Part shown: piece by piece, positions 17,603-59,310 of the stretch
How the letters are laid out: each line of letters begins with the position of its first letter
Position numbering within the stretch: position 1 is the first letter of the stretch
Source of the DNA: Anaerococcus vaginimassiliensis
GTDB lineage: Bacteria; Bacillota; Clostridia; Tissierellales; Peptoniphilaceae
Assembly (NCBI RefSeq): GCF_900626155.1
Contig: NZ_LR130844.1
Location: 744,061 to 808,060, forward strand
DNA: 64,000 bases
Direction of reading: 5' to 3'
Notes under the pieces: model-generated
The model's database searches: none
Told to the model about the DNA's origin: nothing
Seen by the model: the letters and a program-made list of their open reading frames with translations, nothing else
Program-made: the position numbers and the translations under genes

Positions 17603-17608
17603 TATAAT
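17603..17608 (+). promoter_or_regulatory. -10 box of the riboswitch-antiporter transcript
   Basis: TATAAT lies 9 bases after the rnhA stop and 7 bases before the first aptamer base. Its placement makes the riboswitch the first thing transcribed. A clear -35 box is not seen; it would fall in the end of rnhA. Confidence 0.55.
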
Positions 17609-17614
17609 ATATCA

Positions 17615-17701
17615 GGGAAATGAAGTTCTTCCCAAAATTTATATTTTAAACCGCTATAAGCTAATGACTTCTGCACTTGCAGGGGTTGTTGGCTTTTTTT
17701 T
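17615..17701 (+). promoter_or_regulatory. Fluoride riboswitch (crcB motif) with terminator
   Basis: The leader matches the crcB/fluoride aptamer element by element. GGGAAA at 17615-17620 pairs with TTCCC across a TGAAGT loop. AAACCGCT (about 17648-17655) and AGCTAATGACTTCTGC (17659-17674) follow. The loop GAAGT can pair with ACTTC (17667-17671) as the known pseudoknot. The well-studied Bacillus aptamer has GGAGT/ACTCC there, so the pair is compensatorily changed. An extra 14-base AT hairpin is inserted before AAACC. The 3' aptamer strand also forms the 5' arm of a terminator (17659-17668 with 17685-17694, then seven Ts), ending 17 bases before the antiporter ATG. Fluoride should turn the gene on. 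Confidence 0.88.
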
Positions 17702-49036: not shown

Positions 49037-49083
49037 AGAAGGTTATATCAACAAAATTGAAAAATAAAAAAAAGGAGAGGATT

Positions 49084-51270
49084 ATGAAAAACAAATTATT
49101 TTCAATTTTCACAGCACTAGCAATGGTCCTAGGAATCCTAGTATCCCCATTCACAAGTGCTCATGCGGCTGATGAAGTTACAAATTCAGTAACACTTCAT
49201 AAGATGTTAATTGACAAAGATAATCTAGATCAGTTTCCAAAAGAAGCTGGACAAGAAGGATTAGATAAGTCAATTTATGATGGTAATGCTCTAAAAAATG
49301 GATACTTCGGAGCAAATGCGAAAGACATAGGCGGAGTATACTTTGCATGGGCAAAGAAAGACACTGACGGCGAATACTACTGGGCAGACAAAGATGGTAA
49401 TATCATTGGAGAGAAAAAAGAAGAAGCAGATACCAGAGTAAAAGCTGAAAAAGGCAAATATAAAGATATGCCAGAAAACACCTACGGTGGTCTTACAGAA
49501 GATAATAACGGTTTTAAATTTAATACTGCAAAATTTTCAGGAACCTACAAAATTTTTGAAATCGAATCAAAATCAACATATGTAGGTGAAAATAATGACT
49601 CAACACTAACAGGATCAAAAGCAGTTCCAGTAGAAATTACACTTCCACTAGTAAACGAAAAGGGTGTAATTGCAGATGCACACGTTTATCCAAAAAATAC
49701 AGAAGATAAACCAACCACAAACAAAGACTTCTCTAACAAATTTGATCAAACAACTCCAAATGGAAGAGATTACAATACAGATGAAACAGAAGTCCAAGGG
49801 AATCCAGAAATATCAGAAAAAGAAAAGAAAGAAGCTTGGGAACCAAAAAACGTTGGTGACAAAGTGGATTACACAGTTAAAACAACAATTCCAGCAAATG
49901 CTAGATATGCAACAGCATACTGGAACGACGAAATGACTGATGGTCTTACACTTGACATAAATTCTGTTAAGCTTGCTTATACAGGTAATGATAATGTTAC
50001 ATTAACAATAGATCAAGACTATACTATAAAACCAACATCAAATGGCGGGAAACAAGGTTTCGAACTTGAATTTACTCCTACTGGTCTAGAAAAAATCAAC
50101 AACAAGCCTAATGAAGGTACAATTACAATAACATACTCAGCAACACTAAACGAAAATGCAGTAGTAGCAGTACCTGAATCAAACGACGTTAACTTCTTCT
50201 ATGGTAATAACCCAAGAAAAGGTAACACACCAAAACCAAACTATCCAGATGAAAATGGTAATTTAAAAGTTACAAAAACATGGGACGACGGAGTATGGGC
50301 AGAAGGCGAAAGTGCTACATTTAGACTTGTAGATGCTCAAACTGGTAAAATGGTTACAGCTGATGATCTAGTTCAAGGTAACGCTACAAAAGAAGATTTT
50401 GAAGCATACAAGAAAGAATTTAAATCTGAACAAAAAATTGGATACAACCAAGAAGATAAAACAGCAACATGGAAATACCTAGACAAAAACAAACAATATA
50501 AAGCAGTCGAAATTGACATGACAGCTGGTACAGAATCTTCATATGAAGTAAATAATAAAGGTGAGATTGTTGTTGTAAACCACAAAACAAACAACCCAGC
50601 ACCAATCAACCCAACTGAACCAAAAGTTGTAACATACGGTGCAAAATTCGTAAAAACAAATGCTGATGGAACAGAAAGACTAGCTGATGCTGAATTTGCA
50701 GTTAAAAACTCAGAAGGTAAATTCCTAACAGGAACAGCAGCAGACCGTACAGCATATCAAGCAGCTCAAGATGCTTACCTTGCTAAAATTGAAGAATATA
50801 ACGGCAAAAAAGCAGAAGAACAAACAGATGAATTAAAAGCAGAAATCAAAAAGCTTGAAGAAGCAAGAGACAAAGCTTGGAATGCAACACTAAAAGATAT
50901 GACTCAATGGGGAGATAAAGATAATGCAATCAAATTAAAATCTAACAAACAAGGTCAATTTGAAATTGCTGGTTTAGCTCCTGGAAAATACACCTTAGTG
51001 GAAACAAAAGCTCCAGAAGGATACGTAAACGCAGAAAAAGCAACTCTTGAATTTGAATTTGAAGTTACAAAAGATGGTCAAAAATTAAAAAATATTGACT
51101 TTGGCGTAAAAGATGATAAAGAAGCTGACAATGCTCAACAAGTTATCAACAAGAAAGTAACAATCCCACAAACAGGTGGTATCGGATCACTAATCTTTGT
51201 AGTAGCAGGTCTTGCAATCATGACATTCGCATACACAGCCTACAAAAAAAGCCAATACCAAGAAGCTTAA
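49084..51270 (+). CDS. SpaH/EbpB-like LPXTG-anchored major pilin
   Basis: The frame is open from a TTG at 49057, but AAAGGAGAGG directly precedes the ATG at 49084. The 728-residue product has a signal peptide (cleavage after AHA, residue 28), an N-terminal pilin D1 domain (VTLHKMLID), a pilin motif DAHVYPKNT whose lysine is K204, Cna-B-type domains, an E-box YTLVETKAPEGY with E640, and a sorting signal IPQTG at 694-698, followed by a membrane helix. Such subunits are polymerised by class C sortases into covalent pili. The last domain holds a long Lys/Glu helical insertion. No sortase or minor pilin gene is adjacent; the giant adhesin upstream could be a tip protein, which is speculation. Confidence 0.92.
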   Translation: MKNKLFSIFTALAMVLGILVSPFTSAHAADEVTNSVTLHKMLIDKDNLDQFPKEAGQEGLDKSIYDGNALKNGYFGANAKDIGGVYFAWAKKDTDGEYYWADKDGNIIGEKKEEADTRVKAEKGKYKDMPENTYGGLTEDNNGFKFNTAKFSGTYKIFEIESKSTYVGENNDSTLTGSKAVPVEITLPLVNEKGVIADAHVYPKNTEDKPTTNKDFSNKFDQTTPNGRDYNTDETEVQGNPEISEKEKKEAWEPKNVGDKVDYTVKTTIPANARYATAYWNDEMTDGLTLDINSVKLAYTGNDNVTLTIDQDYTIKPTSNGGKQGFELEFTPTGLEKINNKPNEGTITITYSATLNENAVVAVPESNDVNFFYGNNPRKGNTPKPNYPDENGNLKVTKTWDDGVWAEGESATFRLVDAQTGKMVTADDLVQGNATKEDFEAYKKEFKSEQKIGYNQEDKTATWKYLDKNKQYKAVEIDMTAGTESSYEVNNKGEIVVVNHKTNNPAPINPTEPKVVTYGAKFVKTNADGTERLADAEFAVKNSEGKFLTGTAADRTAYQAAQDAYLAKIEEYNGKKAEEQTDELKAEIKKLEEARDKAWNATLKDMTQWGDKDNAIKLKSNKQGQFEIAGLAPGKYTLVETKAPEGYVNAEKATLEFEFEVTKDGQKLKNIDFGVKDDKEADNAQQVINKKVTIPQTGGIGSLIFVVAGLAIMTFAYTAYKKSQYQEA

Positions 51271-51784: not shown

Positions 51785-52107
51785 TGAAAAAGTTATTTTA
51801 TAGAAAGAAAAAATAAAAAAAGATCAAACTATTAATAATGAAAATATATATTATAATAGTTAATATATTAAATTTTTATAATTTTTATGAAATCCATGAC
51901 TTAAATAATTTCTCTTATATATTTACATACTAAAATGTCATACATAGAATACTGATATTATAAGATAATTTTTAATTATTAGATATTATTGTAATCAATA
52001 AGTAACAATATAATATTGAAGTAGTTGAACGAAACTTATAACAAGTGATAAAAGTACTAGTAGTTATGATCTATATTTTATATAGCTGATATAATTAGGA
52101 GTTGAAG

Positions 52108-54645
52108 ATGGTTGATTTTAGAAAAAAAGTTGCAAATAAAAATAAATTAAAAGTTACAGATCCTATTAAATTATATGATACACTTGATAGAAAAAGTATC
52201 GCTGGACCTTTGAGACCTATACAAGAATATTCTTTAAGAGAGTGGTATGAAAATAGAAAAGAAGAAAAAGACTTAATTATAAAACTTCATACAGGAGAAG
52301 GTAAGACATTAATTGGATTGTTAATTTTATTATCATCAATAAATCAAGGTTATGGTCCTTGTTTATATGTTTGTCCTAACATTTACTTAGTTAAACAAGT
52401 ATGCAATGAAGCCGATAAATTTGGAATCCCATACTGTGTAATAAAAAGTAACAACGAAATTCCTGAAGAATTTATTTCAGGAGAGAAGATACTAATTACT
52501 CATGCACATAAAATGTTTAATGGCAGATCAATATTCGGAATAGGAAATAATTTTACGAAAGCAGGAACAGTAATTTTAGATGACTCACATGCGTGTATAG
52601 ATGTTTTAAAGGACGCATTTACAATAATTATAAGCAAAGATACTAATAAAGCTGTTTATAACAAAATATTGACACTTTTTACTGATGATCTAATAGAGCA
52701 AGGGGAAGGTAGCTTTTTAGATATTAAATCTGGAGAATATGATACATTTATGCCAGTTCCATATTGGGCATGGAATGATAAAAGGATGGAAATGCTTAAA
52801 ATTTTATCTGATAATTCAGCATTAGATGAAATTAAATTTGTATGGCCATTATTAAAAGATAAAATATTAGATTACTCATGCTTTATATCAGGTAAAAAAA
52901 TAGAAATCTCTCCATATAATATTAATGTTGAGAAATTTGGAACGTTCTCAAAAGCTAGTAGACGAATCCTGATGTCTGCTACAACCCAAGAAGATATATT
53001 TTTTGTTAAAGGTTTGAATTTTCCTAGTAGCGTTATAAAAAATCCAATTAATTATCCTTACTCAAGGTGGTCTGGAGAAAAAATGATATTATTACCATCA
53101 TTAATAGATGAAGATTGTGATAGGGATTTAGTTGCGGCCAGAGTAGGAGTGGGTGAATCTAATAAGCATGGTATCGTTACGATTGTTCCTAGTACAAAAA
53201 AAGCTGTATTTTATAATAATTTGGGTTCGATTTATCCTAAAAATAATGATCAACTTTTAAATGCCGTAGAGAATTTAAGAAAAGGAATTTTTGATCGAAA
53301 TATTGTAATAAATAATAGATATGACGGTATTGATTTACCTGATGAAAGTTGCAGGGTTCTAGTTATTGATTCGATGCCATATTTAAATAGTTATTCAGAT
53401 CGATATGAAGAACGATGTTGCCCTAACAGCGAAATAATCAATAAAAAATTAGCACAAAAAATTGAACAAGGACTTGGTAGAGCTGTACGTGGAGAAAAAG
53501 ATTATTGCGCAATTTTAATTATAGGTTCAGATATTGAAAAATTTATGAGAGGAACACTAACTAGAAAATTTTTCTCGGCTCAGACAAAAAAACAAGTAGA
53601 AATTGGATTTGATGTTGCAAAAATGGCTAAAGAAGACATTAATGATGATGATCACCCAATGGATCAAATTTTTACACTAATAAATCAGATGCTAAATAGA
53701 GACGAAGGTTGGAAAGAATATTATACTAATGAAATGAATGATATTACTGAAGAAAGCATAGATACTAATATATATGATAGATATACTCAAGAAATTGCAC
53801 CAGAGAAATTATTTTCACAAGGTGAATATGAAAAAGCGGTAGAAATGATGCAAGAATTTATTGATGGTTTTATAAAGGATAAACTAGAAAGAGGGTGGTA
53901 TTTAGAGCACATGGCAAGGTATGCATATATGTACTCAAAAGAAAAATCCAAGAAATTTCAGAAAATAGCATTTATAAATAATCAACAATTATTAAAACCG
54001 AGAAATGTTATCGAGTATTCAAAAATTAGCTTTTTGAATGAGAATAGAATAACAAATTTTAAAAAGTATATTTTAAAATACCAAAGTATTGAAGATTTTC
54101 TTCTTAATATTAATGAAGTTATAGAAAATCTTTCGTTTGGGATAGAATCAGAAAAATTCGAATCAGCTTTAAAAGAACTAGGAGATTTTTTAGGATATGT
54201 AAGTCAGCGCCCAGATAAAGAGATTAGAAAAGGCCCTGATAATTTATGGAGTGTATCTAATAACAAATATGTTTTTTTCGAGTGCAAAAGTGAGGTCAAA
54301 GAGAATCGAGAATTTATAAATAAATATGAAGTAGGACAATTTAATAATCATTGTGGGTGGTTTAAGAGTCAATACGGAGAGATGGTAGATGTATTACGTA
54401 TAATTATTATTCCTACGAATAAACTATCGTATAACGCAAATTTCACCGAAGAAGTTTATGTAATGAGTATATCGGGACTAATAAAACTTAGAAATAATTT
54501 AACAAAGTTTATAAATGAAATTAAACATTACGATTTTGATTCTCTATCCAATGAAAGTATTCAAAAATATTTTAATATGTACTATTTAAACGTTGAGGAC
54601 TTTAAAAATAAATATCTTGAAGAAATATTAGAACATAAGGAATAA
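52108..54645 (+). CDS. SF2 helicase fused to a PD-(D/E)XK nuclease domain
   Basis: An 845-residue protein. AGGAG at 52097-52101 favours the ATG at 52108 over the in-frame TTG at 52102. Helicase motifs: Walker A TGEGKT (62-67), motif II DDSH (158-161), SAT (290-292) and motif VI QGLGRAVRG (454-462). The C-terminal region has GPDN (D711) then FFECKSE (E725, K727), the D-x13-E-x-K spacing of restriction-type nucleases, after a helix ending FLGYVSQRPD. A helicase plus nuclease on one chain, in an A+T-rich island beside phage-like remnants, suggests a phage-defence role; I cannot match it to a named system. TGATATAAT lies at 52087-52095, but its predicted start would leave almost no leader. Confidence 0.75.
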   Translation: MVDFRKKVANKNKLKVTDPIKLYDTLDRKSIAGPLRPIQEYSLREWYENRKEEKDLIIKLHTGEGKTLIGLLILLSSINQGYGPCLYVCPNIYLVKQVCNEADKFGIPYCVIKSNNEIPEEFISGEKILITHAHKMFNGRSIFGIGNNFTKAGTVILDDSHACIDVLKDAFTIIISKDTNKAVYNKILTLFTDDLIEQGEGSFLDIKSGEYDTFMPVPYWAWNDKRMEMLKILSDNSALDEIKFVWPLLKDKILDYSCFISGKKIEISPYNINVEKFGTFSKASRRILMSATTQEDIFFVKGLNFPSSVIKNPINYPYSRWSGEKMILLPSLIDEDCDRDLVAARVGVGESNKHGIVTIVPSTKKAVFYNNLGSIYPKNNDQLLNAVENLRKGIFDRNIVINNRYDGIDLPDESCRVLVIDSMPYLNSYSDRYEERCCPNSEIINKKLAQKIEQGLGRAVRGEKDYCAILIIGSDIEKFMRGTLTRKFFSAQTKKQVEIGFDVAKMAKEDINDDDHPMDQIFTLINQMLNRDEGWKEYYTNEMNDITEESIDTNIYDRYTQEIAPEKLFSQGEYEKAVEMMQEFIDGFIKDKLERGWYLEHMARYAYMYSKEKSKKFQKIAFINNQQLLKPRNVIEYSKISFLNENRITNFKKYILKYQSIEDFLLNINEVIENLSFGIESEKFESALKELGDFLGYVSQRPDKEIRKGPDNLWSVSNNKYVFFECKSEVKENREFINKYEVGQFNNHCGWFKSQYGEMVDVLRIIIIPTNKLSYNANFTEEVYVMSISGLIKLRNNLTKFINEIKHYDFDSLSNESIQKYFNMYYLNVEDFKNKYLEEILEHKE

Positions 54646-54981: not shown

Positions 54982-55911
54982 ATGATAATGATGATTGATA
55001 TTAATTTCAGGGTGGTGAAAAAGCTTCACTTTTAATTCTTAAGAGAGCATATGAAATTTTTGGTAATTATAGAAGAGAGACTTAGCTTCGTGATTTTAAA
55101 GGAGCAGTGTTTGTATAAAAGGTGTGAACTTTGCAATAAGGAGTTTGATGAGTTACAATTGACAAAAGAACATTACCCAGCTAAAAGTGTGGGAAATAAT
55201 GACTTGGTTCTTATAAATTTATTTGATGTGTGTGAGGATATGATACAAGCTCCTAATTAATTTAGATATATTTTTAATTCTGGTCTAGGATTTTCGGGAA
55301 TTGAGAATTATTATTCAAATAGTGAAACGTCAGAGAGCATATATCCAGAAGGTAGGTATGCTAGGACTTTGTGTAAACAATGCAATAGTTTTTTAGGTAG
55401 ATATGACGAGGCTTATAAAAAGTTTTATGATAATGATGGAGATCCAAAGAAGATTAAGTGTTTTTCTAGGGAGACCAAATTAAGAATAATAAAGGCTATT
55501 TATGGTAAATTTTTATCACTTCCAGAAACCAATGGAGAAGATTTAGATTTTAGAGATTTCATTTCAGAAGAAAGATGTGAAGAGTGTAGAGGTGAGTGGA
55601 GATTATTTTTTATAAAAAGAGATACAATTACAAGTGATATGCAAACTGCAAAACTAAATTATGATAATGGAGTAGTTTATCATTTGAGTTATGATAAATT
55701 TATTTTCGACTTATTAAATTTTGAAAAACCAAATAAATATTTTATGAATAATATTTTTGATATTTTGGAAAAAAATTACAAACTGCAAGTTAAATCTGTT
55801 GAAAAAGATGGATTTTATAGCGAAGCTTTTATTACAAATCTATTTAGGAATCTTCTCCAATACATAAAATGGAGATATTATTTGGGCAATAGGCAATTAA
55901 AATGTAATTAA
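54982..55911 (+). pseudogene. Degraded HNH-type endonuclease gene
   Basis: A start ATG at 54982 follows GTGGAG. Coding similarity then jumps frames: GGEKASLLILKRAYEIFGNYR is read in frame 3 from 55011 to a TAG at 55083 and beyond, then from about 55116 the frame is 1 through 55911. That frame is cut by one TAA (55258-55260), with open sequence on both sides. The readable protein has CELC, an EHYP motif, and TLCKQCNSFLG, the Cys-pair and His pattern of HNH nucleases, plus a later CEEC. At least two frameshifts and two stops make it non-functional. It follows the helicase and may once have belonged to the same defence locus. Confidence 0.65.
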
Positions 55912-56626: not shown

Positions 56627-56647
56627 ATAAAAAAAGGAGATTTCCTT

Positions 56648-56932
56648 ATGTATTATGTCTACATCCTAGTCAACAAATCTAACGGCAGAATATATGTCGG
56701 TCATACATATGATTTAAGAAAAAGAGTCTGGGAACACAAATACCACGTCAATCCAAATTCTTTTACAGCAAGATACAACATTACTAAATCAGTATATTTC
56801 GAGTATGGAGAGGATTATTACGAAACAAGAGCGAGGGAAAAGCAGATTAAAGGATATAGGCGTGAGAAGAAATATGCCTTGGTCGAATCGAACAACCTAT
56901 ATTTTAGAAAATTGTACTATGATTTGTTTTAG
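56648..56932 (+). CDS. GIY-YIG nuclease domain protein
   Basis: A 94-residue single-domain protein of the UPF0213/UvrC-N type. MYYVYILVNKSNGRIYVGHT carries the first strand with the YVYIL and IYVG motifs (the GIY and YIG equivalents). It continues with DLRKRVWEH (catalytic Arg) and YETRAREKQIKGYRREKK (Glu). The ATG at 56648 is set by AAGGAGA; an upstream ATG at 56597 has none. Single-domain members are found as stand-alone genes or mobile endonucleases; its target is unknown. It is the only apparently intact small gene in the decayed part of the island. Confidence 0.85.
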   Translation: MYYVYILVNKSNGRIYVGHTYDLRKRVWEHKYHVNPNSFTARYNITKSVYFEYGEDYYETRAREKQIKGYRREKKYALVESNNLYFRKLYYDLF

Positions 56933-57002
56933 ATAAGCTTATAAGTGTTACATATAATATATGGATACTAGTAATGTAACTACAACTGGGTATAATAATA
57001 GT

Positions 57003-57076
57003 AACCATGATGTTGTAGAAGTAAATGCATGGTTTCGACCAAACAAAAAAGACGAGCGTAGGGCTCGTCTTTTTTT
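57003..57076 (+). ncRNA. Antitoxin RNA of Fst-like module 1
   Basis: TATAAT at 56991-56996 predicts a start near 57003. The RNA would run to the shared terminator (GACGAGC/GCTCGTC, 57051-57069, then Ts). The promoter-proximal AGTAACCATGATGTTGTAGA (57000-57019) matches 19 of 20 bases of 57146-57165 on the same strand, and TGCATG recurs as well. The toxin mRNA comes from the other strand there, so the RNA can pair with the toxin start codon region in addition to the shared terminator, as RNA II does in Enterococcus par. Confidence 0.75.
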
Positions 57077-57077
57077 A
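57045..57077. terminator. Bidirectional terminator of module 1
   Basis: Six As, GACGAGC (57051-57057), a 5-base loop, GCTCGTC (57063-57069) and seven Ts. It works from both strands and would end both the antitoxin RNA and the convergent toxin mRNA. Confidence 0.92.
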
Positions 57078-57079
57078 TG

Positions 57080-57175
57080 CTAGTTATCATCGAGTTTACT
57101 ATCTAGCCATTTGCAGATTAAGTGACCAACTACATCTACTGCGATAGTAACTATGATGTTGTAGATTTTTTGCAT
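57080..57175 (-). CDS. Fst-like type I toxin, copy 1 (31 residues)
   Basis: On the minus strand GGAGGTG (57181-57187) precedes an ATG at 57175. The product is a short amphipathic peptide: MQKIYN, a hydrophobic stretch IIVTIAVDVVGHLI, then CKWLDSKLDDN. A hydrophobic helix followed by Lys-Trp-Leu-Asp and an acidic tail is the Fst/Ldr toxin pattern; such peptides disturb the membrane. TATAAT on the minus strand at 57221-57226 is the likely -10. Translation should be blocked by the convergent antitoxin RNA. Confidence 0.78.
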   Translation of the reverse strand: MQKIYNIIVTIAVDVVGHLICKWLDSKLDDN

Positions 57176-57262
57176 GATCTCACCTCCTTGCATGCTAATG
57201 GAAGCGATGATAACATATGTATTATACTATATTTGTATTAAGAAAAGGAAGATATTTACTGT

Positions 57263-57302
57263 AGATTCCTCGTCGAACCCTTCGGATTCTCTGTCGGAAT
57301 GA
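57263..57302 (-). repeat. Palindromic repeat copy, reverse orientation
   Basis: The reverse complement reads TCATTCCGACAGAG, an inner hairpin GAATCC-GAA-GGGTTC with one G-T wobble, then GACGAGGAATCT. It belongs to the family clustered at 48.3-48.7 kb and lies upstream of the module 1 toxin promoter. Confidence 0.85.
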
Positions 57303-57405
57303 TTTATTTGAAATAGGCATGTAAATTCATACACTTATCAGATTATCATAAGATAAGGGATTAGATAATACTAGAAATTAATTTACAACTGGGTATAATA
57401 TCATT

Positions 57406-57472
57406 AACCATGAATTCTAGAAATCTGCATGGTTTCAACCGAAAAAAGACGAGCCTGCACGCTCGTCTTTTT
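57406..57472 (+). ncRNA. Antitoxin RNA of Fst-like module 2
   Basis: TATAAT at 57394-57399, preceded by the same TACAACTGGG as in module 1, predicts a start near 57406. ATGAATTCTAGAAAT (57410-57424) is repeated exactly at 57556-57570, and TGCATG follows in both. These sites cover codons 1-8 of the toxin on the other strand. The RNA ends at the shared terminator (57448-57467). The pairing sequence differs from that of module 1. Confidence 0.75.
57442..57472. terminator. Bidirectional terminator of module 2
   Basis: Six As, GACGAGC (57448-57454), loop CTGCAC, GCTCGTC (57461-57467), then Ts. The stem is identical to module 1. Confidence 0.92.
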
Positions 57473-57479
57473 CTTTATG

Positions 57480-57578
57480 CTAGTTATCATCGTTTGCTTC
57501 TCTGTCTAGCCATTTGCAAATAAAGTAACCAACTATACTTGCTGCGACAGATATTATGAATTCTAGAAATTTTTGCAT
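57480..57578 (-). CDS. Fst-like type I toxin, copy 2 (32 residues)
   Basis: GGAGGTG precedes the minus-strand ATG at 57578. The peptide MQKFLEF, IISVAASIVGYFI, CKWLDREANDDN shares the start (MQK), the G-x-x-I-CKWLD core and the DDN end with copy 1, while the hydrophobic part has diverged. The ribosome-binding site, the upstream hairpin region and the TATAAT (near 57622-57627 on the minus strand) are also conserved. It is predicted to be a membrane-active toxin silenced by its own convergent RNA. Confidence 0.78.
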   Translation of the reverse strand: MQKFLEFIISVAASIVGYFICKWLDREANDDN

Positions 57579-57666
57579 GATTTCACCTCCTTCCATGCTA
57601 ATGGAAGTGATGATAACGTATATATTATACTATATTTGTATTAGGATAAGGAAAAATATTAACTGT

Positions 57667-57708
57667 AGATTCCTCGTCGAACCTTTCAGGTTCTCTGTCG
57701 GAATGACG
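57667..57708 (-). repeat. Palindromic repeat copy, reverse orientation
   Basis: The reverse complement reads GTCATTCCGACAGA, a perfect inner hairpin GAACCT-GAA-AGGTTC, then GACGAGGAATCT. Compared with the copy at 48487 (GAACCC/GGGTTC), one base pair has changed on both sides. Confidence 0.85.
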
Positions 57709-57771
57709 TATTTGGGGGACTGTAATTTTTTTATATTAACTATGCCTCGACCTATCATTACTCCAAAAACC

Positions 57772-57810: not shown

Positions 57811-57853
57811 TTTGTAAATTTTGGATTTAACTGAACTGCAAAGTACTAGCTGT

Positions 57854-57895
57854 AGATTCCTCGTCGCTCCTTTTAGTCGCTCTGTCGGAATGACG
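57854..57895 (-). repeat. Palindromic repeat copy, reverse orientation
   Basis: The reverse complement has GTCATTCCGACAGAGCGACT, AAAAGGAGCGACGAGG and AATCT. The outer arms are conserved while the inner arms pair poorly. Confidence 0.8.
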
Positions 57896-57916
57896 TATTT
57901 GAAGTATAATTATTTT

Positions 57917-57989
57917 AACAATGATTTTGTAGAAGTAAATGCATGGTTTAAACCACAGAAAAAGACGAGCACTTTTTGCTCGTCTTTTT
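57917..57989 (+). ncRNA. Orphan Fst-type antitoxin RNA (module 3)
   Basis: TATAAT at 57905-57910 is followed by a sequence matching module 1 antitoxin at all but two positions over about 33 bases (through TTGTAGAAGTAAATGCATGG), and by the same terminator stem (57964-57984). No toxin ORF follows: the terminator is succeeded by the end of brnQ. It may be a remnant, or an extra RNA able to silence the module 1 toxin. Confidence 0.6.
57959..57989. terminator. Bidirectional terminator shared by orphan RNA and brnQ
   Basis: GACGAGC (57964-57970), loop ACTTTTT, GCTCGTC (57978-57984), with A and T tracts. On the minus strand it lies 20-45 bases after the brnQ stop and would terminate that gene. Confidence 0.9.
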
Positions 57990-58008
57990 CTTTTGGCTAT
58001 TATATATT

Positions 58009-59310
58009 CTAATTTACTTTTTTTCCTAGTCCTAATTTTCCCAATATCCATCCTATTACAAAACAGACTAGGGATGGGATAAACCATGTGAAGCCGAATT
58101 GGGCTAGTGGTAGGGATTTTATTATTTCTACTAGTGCTCCTAGTCCTAGTTGTTCTCCGAATGTTTCTATTACTGCGACTATCGTTACTCCTATTACCAT
58201 TAGGATGTATGCCATGTTGTATGGTACTTTTTTGTCAAATATCATGTAGAATACTAGGGCAATTATTATTGGATAACCTATAGTTAGTACTGGTACTGCT
58301 AGGTTAATTATTGCGTCTACTCCGAGTGATGATAGTAAAAAGCTTATGATTGTTACTACGATTACTGTGTAGATGTATTTTACTTTGCCGTGGGTTAATT
58401 CTTCTATGAAGTTTCCTGCAGATGATGTTAGTCCTATGGCAGTTGTAAGGCAAGCTAGGGTTACGCATACGCTTAGGGCAAATTTGCCGAAGTTACCTAG
58501 AGTCATGTAAACTAGGCTTACTAGAATTTCTACACGAGAGTCATCTGCTGTAAATAAGGAGCTTCCGCTTGCGCCAAGATAGGTTAGTCCACCGTAGACA
58601 AGACTTAAAAATATTGATGCAACTATTCCTACTGAGATTATGAAGCTTAGGCGGTCTTTAGGGCTTTGCTTGCCATAGCCTTTTCTCATAAGATCAGCTA
58701 CAACTATTCCTGTAAATAAAGGAGATGCGAAGGCATCTAGGGTTTGATATCCCTCGTAGAAGCCTTTGACAAAGTATCCGCCTTCTACTGGAACGTCTAC
58801 TGGTTTTCCTATTGGACTTATTATAGCTTTTATTATTACTATAAATAGGAATACTAACAAGGCTGGAGTTATGTATTTTCCGATGATATTTACAACATTG
58901 CTTTCCTTGAAGGATAGGGCAAAGGTGATCGCGAAAAATACTATTGTTACAACCCAGATTGGTAGATTTGGGAAAAAACTTTGAAAGCCTACTTCATAGG
59001 TTGTGGCTGCAGTTCTAGGTATAGCAAAGGCTGGTCCTATGCAGATTATAGCTAAAAGTGTTAGGATTTTGGCGAATTTATCTCCTACCCTTTTTCCTAT
59101 GTCTACTGCCCTTCCTCCGGCAGCTGCAGTTACTATTACTGTTAATATTGGAATAACGGGATCTGCTAATAAAAAACCAACCATTGTGGCAAGCCATCCG
59201 TCCCCAGTTATTACGCCCAAGTAGGGTGGAAATATTAAGTTACCTGCTCCAAAAAATATTGCAAATAGGGCAAGTCCACTTATTAATATGTCTTTTTTTC
59301 TATTGGTCAA
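58009..59310 (-). CDS. brnQ: Branched-chain amino acid carrier BrnQ
   Basis: A 433-residue LIVCS-family transporter importing leucine, isoleucine and valine with sodium or protons. It begins with the family signature GLALFAIFFGAGNLIFPPYLG and has about 12 hydrophobic segments. The start is a TTG at 59310, set by AGGAG 6 bases upstream; no in-frame ATG with a ribosome-binding site lies nearby. It is monocistronic, convergent with the toxin-antitoxin region, and shares a terminator with the orphan antitoxin RNA. Confidence 0.95.
   Translation of the reverse strand: MTNRKKDILISGLALFAIFFGAGNLIFPPYLGVITGDGWLATMVGFLLADPVIPILTVIVTAAAGGRAVDIGKRVGDKFAKILTLLAIICIGPAFAIPRTAATTYEVGFQSFFPNLPIWVVTIVFFAITFALSFKESNVVNIIGKYITPALLVFLFIVIIKAIISPIGKPVDVPVEGGYFVKGFYEGYQTLDAFASPLFTGIVVADLMRKGYGKQSPKDRLSFIISVGIVASIFLSLVYGGLTYLGASGSSLFTADDSRVEILVSLVYMTLGNFGKFALSVCVTLACLTTAIGLTSSAGNFIEELTHGKVKYIYTVIVVTIISFLLSSLGVDAIINLAVPVLTIGYPIIIALVFYMIFDKKVPYNMAYILMVIGVTIVAVIETFGEQLGLGALVEIIKSLPLAQFGFTWFIPSLVCFVIGWILGKLGLGKKVN

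Follow-up and report, generated by a model that had tools for sequence, protein, structure and literature searches.

In the window (the whole stretch of 64,000 nucleotides analysed), which comes from an Anaerococcus genome of 1.84 Mb in a single contig, two minus-strand toxin ORFs with strong ribosome-binding sites encode peptides of 31 and 32 aa, and their starts lie 403 bases apart (Table 1). Across a hairpin, each ORF faces a convergent plus-strand RNA region with its own TATAAT box. The hairpins are GC-rich, with an A-run on the 5' side and a T-run on the 3' side, so the terminators can be read as bidirectional. The first-pass annotation of this DNA had described tandem copies of one architecture about 400 bases apart, each with a convergent RNA, a bidirectional terminator and direct repeats, and all of these elements are indeed seen in the sequence. 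The "AGTAAC" that it counted as part of the module 1 repeat, however, lies upstream of the predicted start of the antitoxin RNA (RNA II, ~57003) and is therefore probably absent from the RNA. The promoter pattern of the toxin mRNA (RNA I), TATAAT followed by six bases and G, is retained in most of 43 aligned modules. Another complete module, the third of this genome, lies ~22 kb further on, outside the window (G000:C1:823824, locus L039).

Table 1. Features of the two tandem modules and of the adjoining toxin-less RNA, in window coordinates
Feature	Position	Strand	Basis or remark
Toxin 1 ORF, 31 aa	57080..57175	-	stop 57080-57082; hydrophobic stretch by eye, KWLD core, charged C-terminus; also supported by a profile built from relatives
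Toxin 2 ORF, 32 aa	57480..57578	-	stop 57480-57482
Ribosome-binding site of toxin 1, AAGGAGGTGA	57180..57189	-	sequence
Ribosome-binding site of toxin 2, AAGGAGGTGA	57583..57592	-	sequence
-10 box, toxin 1 mRNA (RNA I)	57221..57226	-	predicted start ~57214
-10 box, toxin 2 mRNA (RNA I)	57624..57629	-	predicted start ~57617
Upstream helix 5' arm, module 1, GUUAUCAUC	57206..57214	-	pairs with 57083-57091, end of toxin ORF
Upstream helix 3' arm, module 1, GAUGAUAAC	57083..57091	-	
Upstream helix 5' arm, module 2	57609..57617	-	pairs with 57483-57491
Upstream helix 3' arm, module 2	57483..57491	-	
DRb copy in toxin 1, codons 4-8	57153..57165	-	
DRb copy in antitoxin RNA 1	57007..57019	+	within predicted 5' hairpin
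DRb copy in toxin 2	57556..57570	-	
DRb copy in antitoxin RNA 2	57410..57424	+	within predicted 5' hairpin
DRa in antitoxin RNA 1, TGCATGGTTTCGACC	57026..57040	+	predicted duplexes with start codon and part of Shine-Dalgarno, both toxins
DRa in antitoxin RNA 2, TGCATGGTTTCAACC	57426..57440	+	predicted duplexes
-10 box, antitoxin RNA 1	56991..56996	+	RNA II predicted ~57003-57076
-10 box, antitoxin RNA 2	57394..57399	+	RNA II predicted ~57406-57473
Bidirectional terminator, module 1	57045..57075	.	sequence; folds on both strands
Bidirectional terminator, module 2	57443..57472	.	sequence; folds on both strands
Toxin-less antitoxin-like RNA, -10 box and terminator	57905..57990	+	resembles antitoxin 1 without the predicted 5' hairpin

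The terminator of the toxin-less RNA is also positioned to end brnQ (minus strand, stop 58009-58011). A deletion may have brought brnQ beside this module terminator; the orthologous brnQ genes in two other genomes (G007 and G015) are also near a module, in the opposite orientation. A short repeat, TGTAGATTCCTCGTCG...CTGTCGGAATGA, flanks the modules at 57258-57315, 57653-57715 and 57840-57906, and it is found at the site expected for the -35 box of the toxin-less antitoxin; parts of it account for 29 of the 32 matches in a search of the own genome. Directly upstream of module 1 lies a gene for a small GIY-YIG domain protein (56645-56932). A gene for a large DEAD-box helicase (52102-54645), ~2.3 kb from the modules, matches the PADLOC candidate defence model PDC-S28 at 1025 bits, and the small ORF adjoining it (55369-55911) gave no Pfam or PADLOC match. 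The window also encodes a Gram-positive pilin backbone protein with an LPXTG anchor (49057-51270). At the Rfam gathering threshold, the only match in the window was a fluoride riboswitch (17607-17680), with none at the modules.

The toxin signature is present: a hydrophobic stretch (judged by eye), a conserved Trp and a charged C-terminus. K22 and L24 are invariant in one alignment, and K22 and W23 are kept at 90% or above in a second alignment. A P/D/S/TXXXG motif in the membrane helix is attributed to the majority of par/Fst toxins in the accessible part of PMC7472228. This motif is not kept here, reading VXXXG in toxin 1 and AXXXG in toxin 2, and in other members S, T, A or C replaces the G of the TXXXG-type motif. 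With the Fst model NF033608 (cut-off 26 bits), toxin 1 reached 17.7 bits and toxin 2 gave no match; the best E-values among relatives were 0.0023 (37 toxins) and 0.00086 (42 toxins). None of the 130 family genomes matched this curated model, in a comparison where the control search was positive in 1 of 14. Neither window toxin matched the Clostridioides type I toxin model NF047374 (cut-off 60 bits), to which 5 of the 37 and 12 of the 42 relative toxins gave weak matches (best E 0.002) and one plasmid relative gave 17.3 bits. In Pfam the window toxins scored 12.2-14.3 bits, below every cut-off, and no Fst family was among the 15 families weakly matched by the 37 relatives. Assignment to a known defence family was considered and dropped, with none of 37 toxins matched by PADLOC. 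An outgroup toxin profile had a single PDB match up to E 10, the Fst/Ldr superfamily toxin LdrD (E 0.083), and the Anaerococcus toxin profile found no Fst/Ldr chain in PDB. The features expected of a par/Fst locus that were found are convergent -10 boxes and a bidirectional terminator (from the sequence), the repeats DRa and DRb, the upstream helix and the toxin signature. Since layout, repeats, helix and signature match but the PXXXG motif and the curated Fst model do not, we call the modules par/Fst-like and do not file them as members of the family.

The ungapped repeat matches between antitoxin and toxin extend over 21 of 22 bases in module 1 and 15 of 15 in module 2, with repeat scores (19.5 and 15.0) above all 1020 shuffles pooled over 51 modules (maximum 14.5). 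When pairing was predicted for all combinations, it was not equal: antitoxin 1 gave -38.7 kcal/mol with toxin 1 and -30.1 kcal/mol with toxin 2, and antitoxin 2 gave -37.3 kcal/mol with toxin 2 and -23.8 kcal/mol with toxin 1, so that own pairs were the strongest. The inner repeat, DRb, separates the pairs when taken alone (antitoxin 1, -19.0 on toxin 1 and -10.8 on toxin 2; antitoxin 2, -4.0 on toxin 1 and -18.1 kcal/mol on toxin 2). A second repeat, DRa (TGCATGGTTTCRACC), lies over the start codon and the GGTGA of the Shine-Dalgarno sequence; it is found in both antitoxins and pairs with both toxins. The earlier statement that each antitoxin matches its own toxin and not the other is thus correct for DRb and incorrect for DRa. 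With DRb private and DRa common, the insulation of the window pair would be asymmetric. Full-length co-folding favours the own pairs (-32.6 and -34.6 vs -10.7 and -4.9), a split to which the differing terminator loops presumably contribute as well. With the terminators removed, antitoxin 1 hardly distinguishes the two toxins (-17.0 on toxin 1, -14.3 on toxin 2), whereas antitoxin 2 does (-5.7 on toxin 1, -22.4 on toxin 2). The description of "insulated RNA pairs" is apt for DRb; given that DRa is common and that antitoxin 1 is predicted to pair substantially with toxin 2, it is overstated for the modules as a whole, and the insulation of this pair is better called partial.

Relatives are frequent in the genus. 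Among 31 Anaerococcus genomes, a protein search gave matches in 23 at E <= 1 and a profile search in 22 at E <= 1e-5, leaving 9 of the 31 without a match at the latter cut-off. Sixty fetched stretches of these genomes and the window yielded 51 modules, 5 of the 56 profile hits having been dropped (two alternative starts, one truncated toxin and two unrelated ORFs), and each antitoxin region was compared with every toxin start. With repeats at fixed positions, the mean score over the 51 modules was 13.2 for the own toxin, 7.3 for non-cognate toxins and 6.9 for shuffled sequences, and the own toxin was best or tied across all genomes in 40 of 51. By duplex energy, for which two RNA II starts were reset by hand, the means were -32.7 kcal/mol for own and -15.3 kcal/mol for non-cognate pairs. 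The own toxin was strictly best in 43 of the 45 modules with an in-genome paralog, and both exceptions involve L052+3583, a toxin ORF with an insertion; no within-genome reassignment out of 20,000 was as good as the real own pairing. On these statistics, the pairing rule is module-specific well beyond the window. Short inserts interrupt the ORFs at L052 3583-3742 and L075 1007-1106 (both in toxin orientation), where the private repeat is decayed (9/10) and still 15/15, respectively.

Two properties of the alignments bear on whether the repeats work as RNA. Within the repeat core (ORF offsets 9-22, 44 distinct pairs), transitions between the two repeat copies keep a G-U pair in 24 cases vs 3 in which they break it (p 5e-5), besides 39 transversions; this core was defined at 75% identity after the result for whole aligned segments (22 vs 10, p 0.050) had been seen, and one module with an interrupted toxin as well as duplicate pairs were dropped from the count. 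The other property is the upstream helix, formed between the 5'-terminal nine bases of RNA I and the nine that immediately precede the toxin stop codon. Own arms form 7.95 of 9 pairs on average vs 7.05 for mixed arms (0 of 20,000 shuffles; 43 of 51 modules, 20 distinct), with compensatory changes. The eight modules left out of this count were interrupted, shifted at the C-terminus, without a recognisable promoter or divergent, and they include L045, L067, L075 and L088, the four of the 51 modules with no helix run of 7 pairs, so the count favours helix-bearing modules. An earlier, promoter-anchored test, which was badly anchored, gave 0.68 vs 0.64 and was replaced by the alignment-anchored one after its result had been seen. 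Predicted folds of RNA I contain the upstream helix in both window modules. A 5' stem-loop at the Shine-Dalgarno sequence appears in the best fold of module 2 and not in that of module 1, and complementary stem-loop arms are visible by eye in most aligned modules. No U-turn (YUNR) was found by eye in the window terminator loops. Taken as sequence statistics, these data show that the pairing of the repeats has a strand-specific RNA nature and that there is an upstream helix.

Beyond the genus, the profile (E <= 1e-5, window genome counted) matched 25 of 249 genomes and 4 of 92 genera in the order, and 14 of 398 genomes and 10 of 267 genera in an even sample of the phylum. Tandem arrays occur there as well, with four modules at ~400-base spacing in G442 and six on one strand in G582. 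For this set, 7 of 53 profile hits were dropped as alternative starts and then 7 of 46 modules (five without a usable terminator and two with truncated toxins). In the remaining 39, mean duplex energies were -32.4 for own, -15.2 for non-cognate and -14.0 for shuffled pairs; in 33 of the 39, the energy of own pairing was lower than the 1st percentile of the shuffles. Where the genome held a paralog, the own toxin came first in 32 of 34 modules, with L183+961 and L193+969 as the two exceptions. This terminator-anchored energy, with the start codon included, replaced a cruder ungapped repeat score after the result of the latter had been seen (which put the own toxin first in 23 of 46 modules and exceeded the 99th percentile of the shuffles in 17 of them). 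Modules that look complete by eye occur on small plasmids of Mogibacterium neglectum and Aerococcus tenax, and related ORFs are present on Carnobacterium, Lactococcus and Enterococcus plasmids among the 30 matches listed of 509 records (E <= 1). The core motif was present in 67 viral contigs; 29 of these contain a total of 30 toxin ORFs that match the profile, some being identical to one another. In 28 of these 30 modules the predicted own duplex was -28 or lower, one being weak and one unscorable; these are own energies only, without a shuffled control. Judged from sequence, the modules belong to a large, mostly unannotated group of KWLD toxins that occurs in Gram-positive bacteria on chromosomes, on plasmids and in phage sequences. 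The reading of the locus as par/Fst-like modules with separately matched repeats is well supported by the architecture, the RNA covariation and the 90 analysed modules, those of the window included.

The closest likeness is to par of pAD1 (RNA I/RNA II, Fst) and parEF0409 of Enterococcus faecalis, which have convergent promoters, a bidirectional terminator, DRa/DRb and an upstream helix. In the part of PMC7472228 available, par loci are listed with the same parts and Clostridia are named among the hosts, the toxin is a short peptide with a charged tail, and the upstream helix of pAD1 RNA I, to which that of the Anaerococcus modules corresponds, sequesters its 5' end. The same portion reports that pAD1 RNA II gives no protection against EF0409 RNA I, presumably as the DRs differ. 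Unlike these loci, the Anaerococcus modules have a YICKWLD core without PXXXG, a toxin 1 under the Fst cut-off, tandem arrays, and a DRb that lies inside codons 4-8 and in the predicted 5' hairpin of RNA II. SprA1/SprA1AS and SprA2/SprA2AS of Staphylococcus aureus are likewise two Fst-type paralogs, each with an antitoxin specific for its own toxin, and no cross-regulation between them is recorded in the accessible portion of PMC6393315. As far as these sources go, insulated par paralogs are established already and are not new. Lpt of Lactobacillus plasmids has a 24-nt complementary repeat over the start codon, a UH and an SL; it differs in being plasmid-borne, and the likeness is known from the description in the available text of PMC5608710. 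The type I modules of Clostridioides difficile (RCd antitoxins) also have many paralogs, with antitoxin specificity in most, but their toxins are 50-53 aa long, vs 31-32 aa in the window; the same source, as far as accessible, mentions Ldr/Fst-like or Fst-like sequences in two Clostridium species (PMC6563280). In a literature mostly without subscription papers, no publication was found on Anaerococcus Fst toxin-antitoxin loci, on ICKWLD or on Enterococcus faecium KWLD/Fst, and tandem Fst-like modules were not found described in the accessible parts of the work on Fst-like loci. What is added here is the scale of the KWLD-toxin group, its tandem arrays and its presence on plasmids and phage contigs, with the window members below the curated Fst and Pfam cut-offs.

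Very probably, each module functions as a type I toxin-antitoxin unit in the manner of par/Fst of pAD1. RNA I would encode the hydrophobic peptide of 31-32 aa, its 5' end being locked to the end of the ORF by the upstream helix. RNA II, ~70 nt long, would be transcribed convergently to the shared terminator and would offer the private DRb, complementary to codons 4-8 of the own toxin, in its 5' hairpin domain, together with the shared DRa over the start codon; pairing of RNA II with RNA I would then block translation. The differences in DRb should make each antitoxin control mainly its own toxin, and the shared DRa leads us to expect some cross-control, above all by antitoxin 1 on toxin 2. We infer in this way the transcription of the modules, the toxicity of the peptides, the translational block and the degree of insulation in the cell.

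The modules could instead be old, decaying remnants of addiction systems, whose pairing persists only through common descent and whose toxins are not produced. The toxin-less antitoxin adjoining the modules would fit such a history, as would the toxin ORFs of relatives that are interrupted (L052+3583, L075-1007) or truncated (L069-1406, L198-989, L168-609) and the genus genomes without a match. However, each toxin in the window still has an uninterrupted ORF, a ribosome-binding site and a helix. The wobble bias, like the compensatory changes, indicates that the modules have been maintained across species. Of the two interrupted modules, L052+3583 has a decayed repeat and L075 does not; we regard decay as improbable. 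Also unlikely, if somewhat less so, is a cross-regulating network in place of insulated pairs, in which antitoxin 1 and the toxin-less copy would control toxins of other modules. Such a network would draw on the shared DRa, on the predicted duplexes of antitoxin 1 with toxin 2 (-30.1 kcal/mol) and of the toxin-less RNA with toxin 1 (-29.2 kcal/mol), set against -38.7 and -37.3 for the own pairs, and on the presence in G007 of two modules with nearly identical DRb; the preference of full-length co-folding for own pairs and the reported lack of cross-regulation between the Fst-type paralogs SprA1 and SprA2 (PMC6393315, accessible part) argue against it. Direct repeats near promoters might suggest binding sites in the DNA for a regulatory protein, but that role is hardly credible here: the repeat sequence is private to each module, its position inside the ORF is fixed, and the core mismatches obey RNA wobble in one orientation, on which ground this reading was ruled out.

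The origin of the tandem pair is a separate matter. The first-pass annotation had proposed duplication followed by divergence, and the shared architecture and 81% DNA identity over 354 bases, flanks included, could be taken as signs of a local duplication. In a tree of 47 modules (4 of 51 omitted), however, module 2 falls in a clade with copies from G007, G009 and G010 (support 95/97), and an AU test with 45 rows (6 of 51 omitted) rejected trees holding modules 1 and 2 together (p 0.0022). Module 1 is unplaced in the tree and shows 94% identity to a G015 copy across 240 bases, and the arrays of G007 and G015 carry these lineages in other combinations (L046, L071). A recent local duplication is thereby rejected; the window pair may go back to an ancient duplication in an ancestor. 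Selection for insulation after a duplication would leave same-genome pairs less alike in DRb, and they are slightly so, e.g. in one similarity class (0.60 in 3 same-genome pairs vs 0.74 in 27 pairs). Over all 58 same-genome pairs (49 of 51 modules), though, the deficit was not significant, 577 of 5000 shuffles being as low, and one pair with DRb at least 12/14 alike was seen vs 1.57 expected. Selection for insulation within genomes was not seen in these pairs, so drift with compensation can explain private repeats without it, and we think it very unlikely that the tandem pair arose by local duplication with subsequent selection for insulation.

If the modules work in the par-like way proposed above, they provide several dozen RNA-RNA pairs from nature that share a scaffold and differ in specificity, so that the rules of antitoxin specificity and cross-talk can be measured directly; the largest array seen has six modules on one strand. 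They would also draw attention to short toxin genes left without an annotated feature on the plasmid records examined. It is conceivable, though doubtful, that the YICKWLD modules form a phylum-wide, mobile par-like branch outside present models, with the ~14-nt DRb as a drifting specificity code. Orthogonal arrays would then collect in chromosomes as incoming plasmid or phage modules addict the cell only when resident antitoxins mismatch, and toxin-less antitoxins such as the one in the window would be anti-addiction genes. A natural candidate for cross-talk is found in G007, where two intact modules in one genome, L046+1798 and L050-971, have DRb sequences 13/14 alike.
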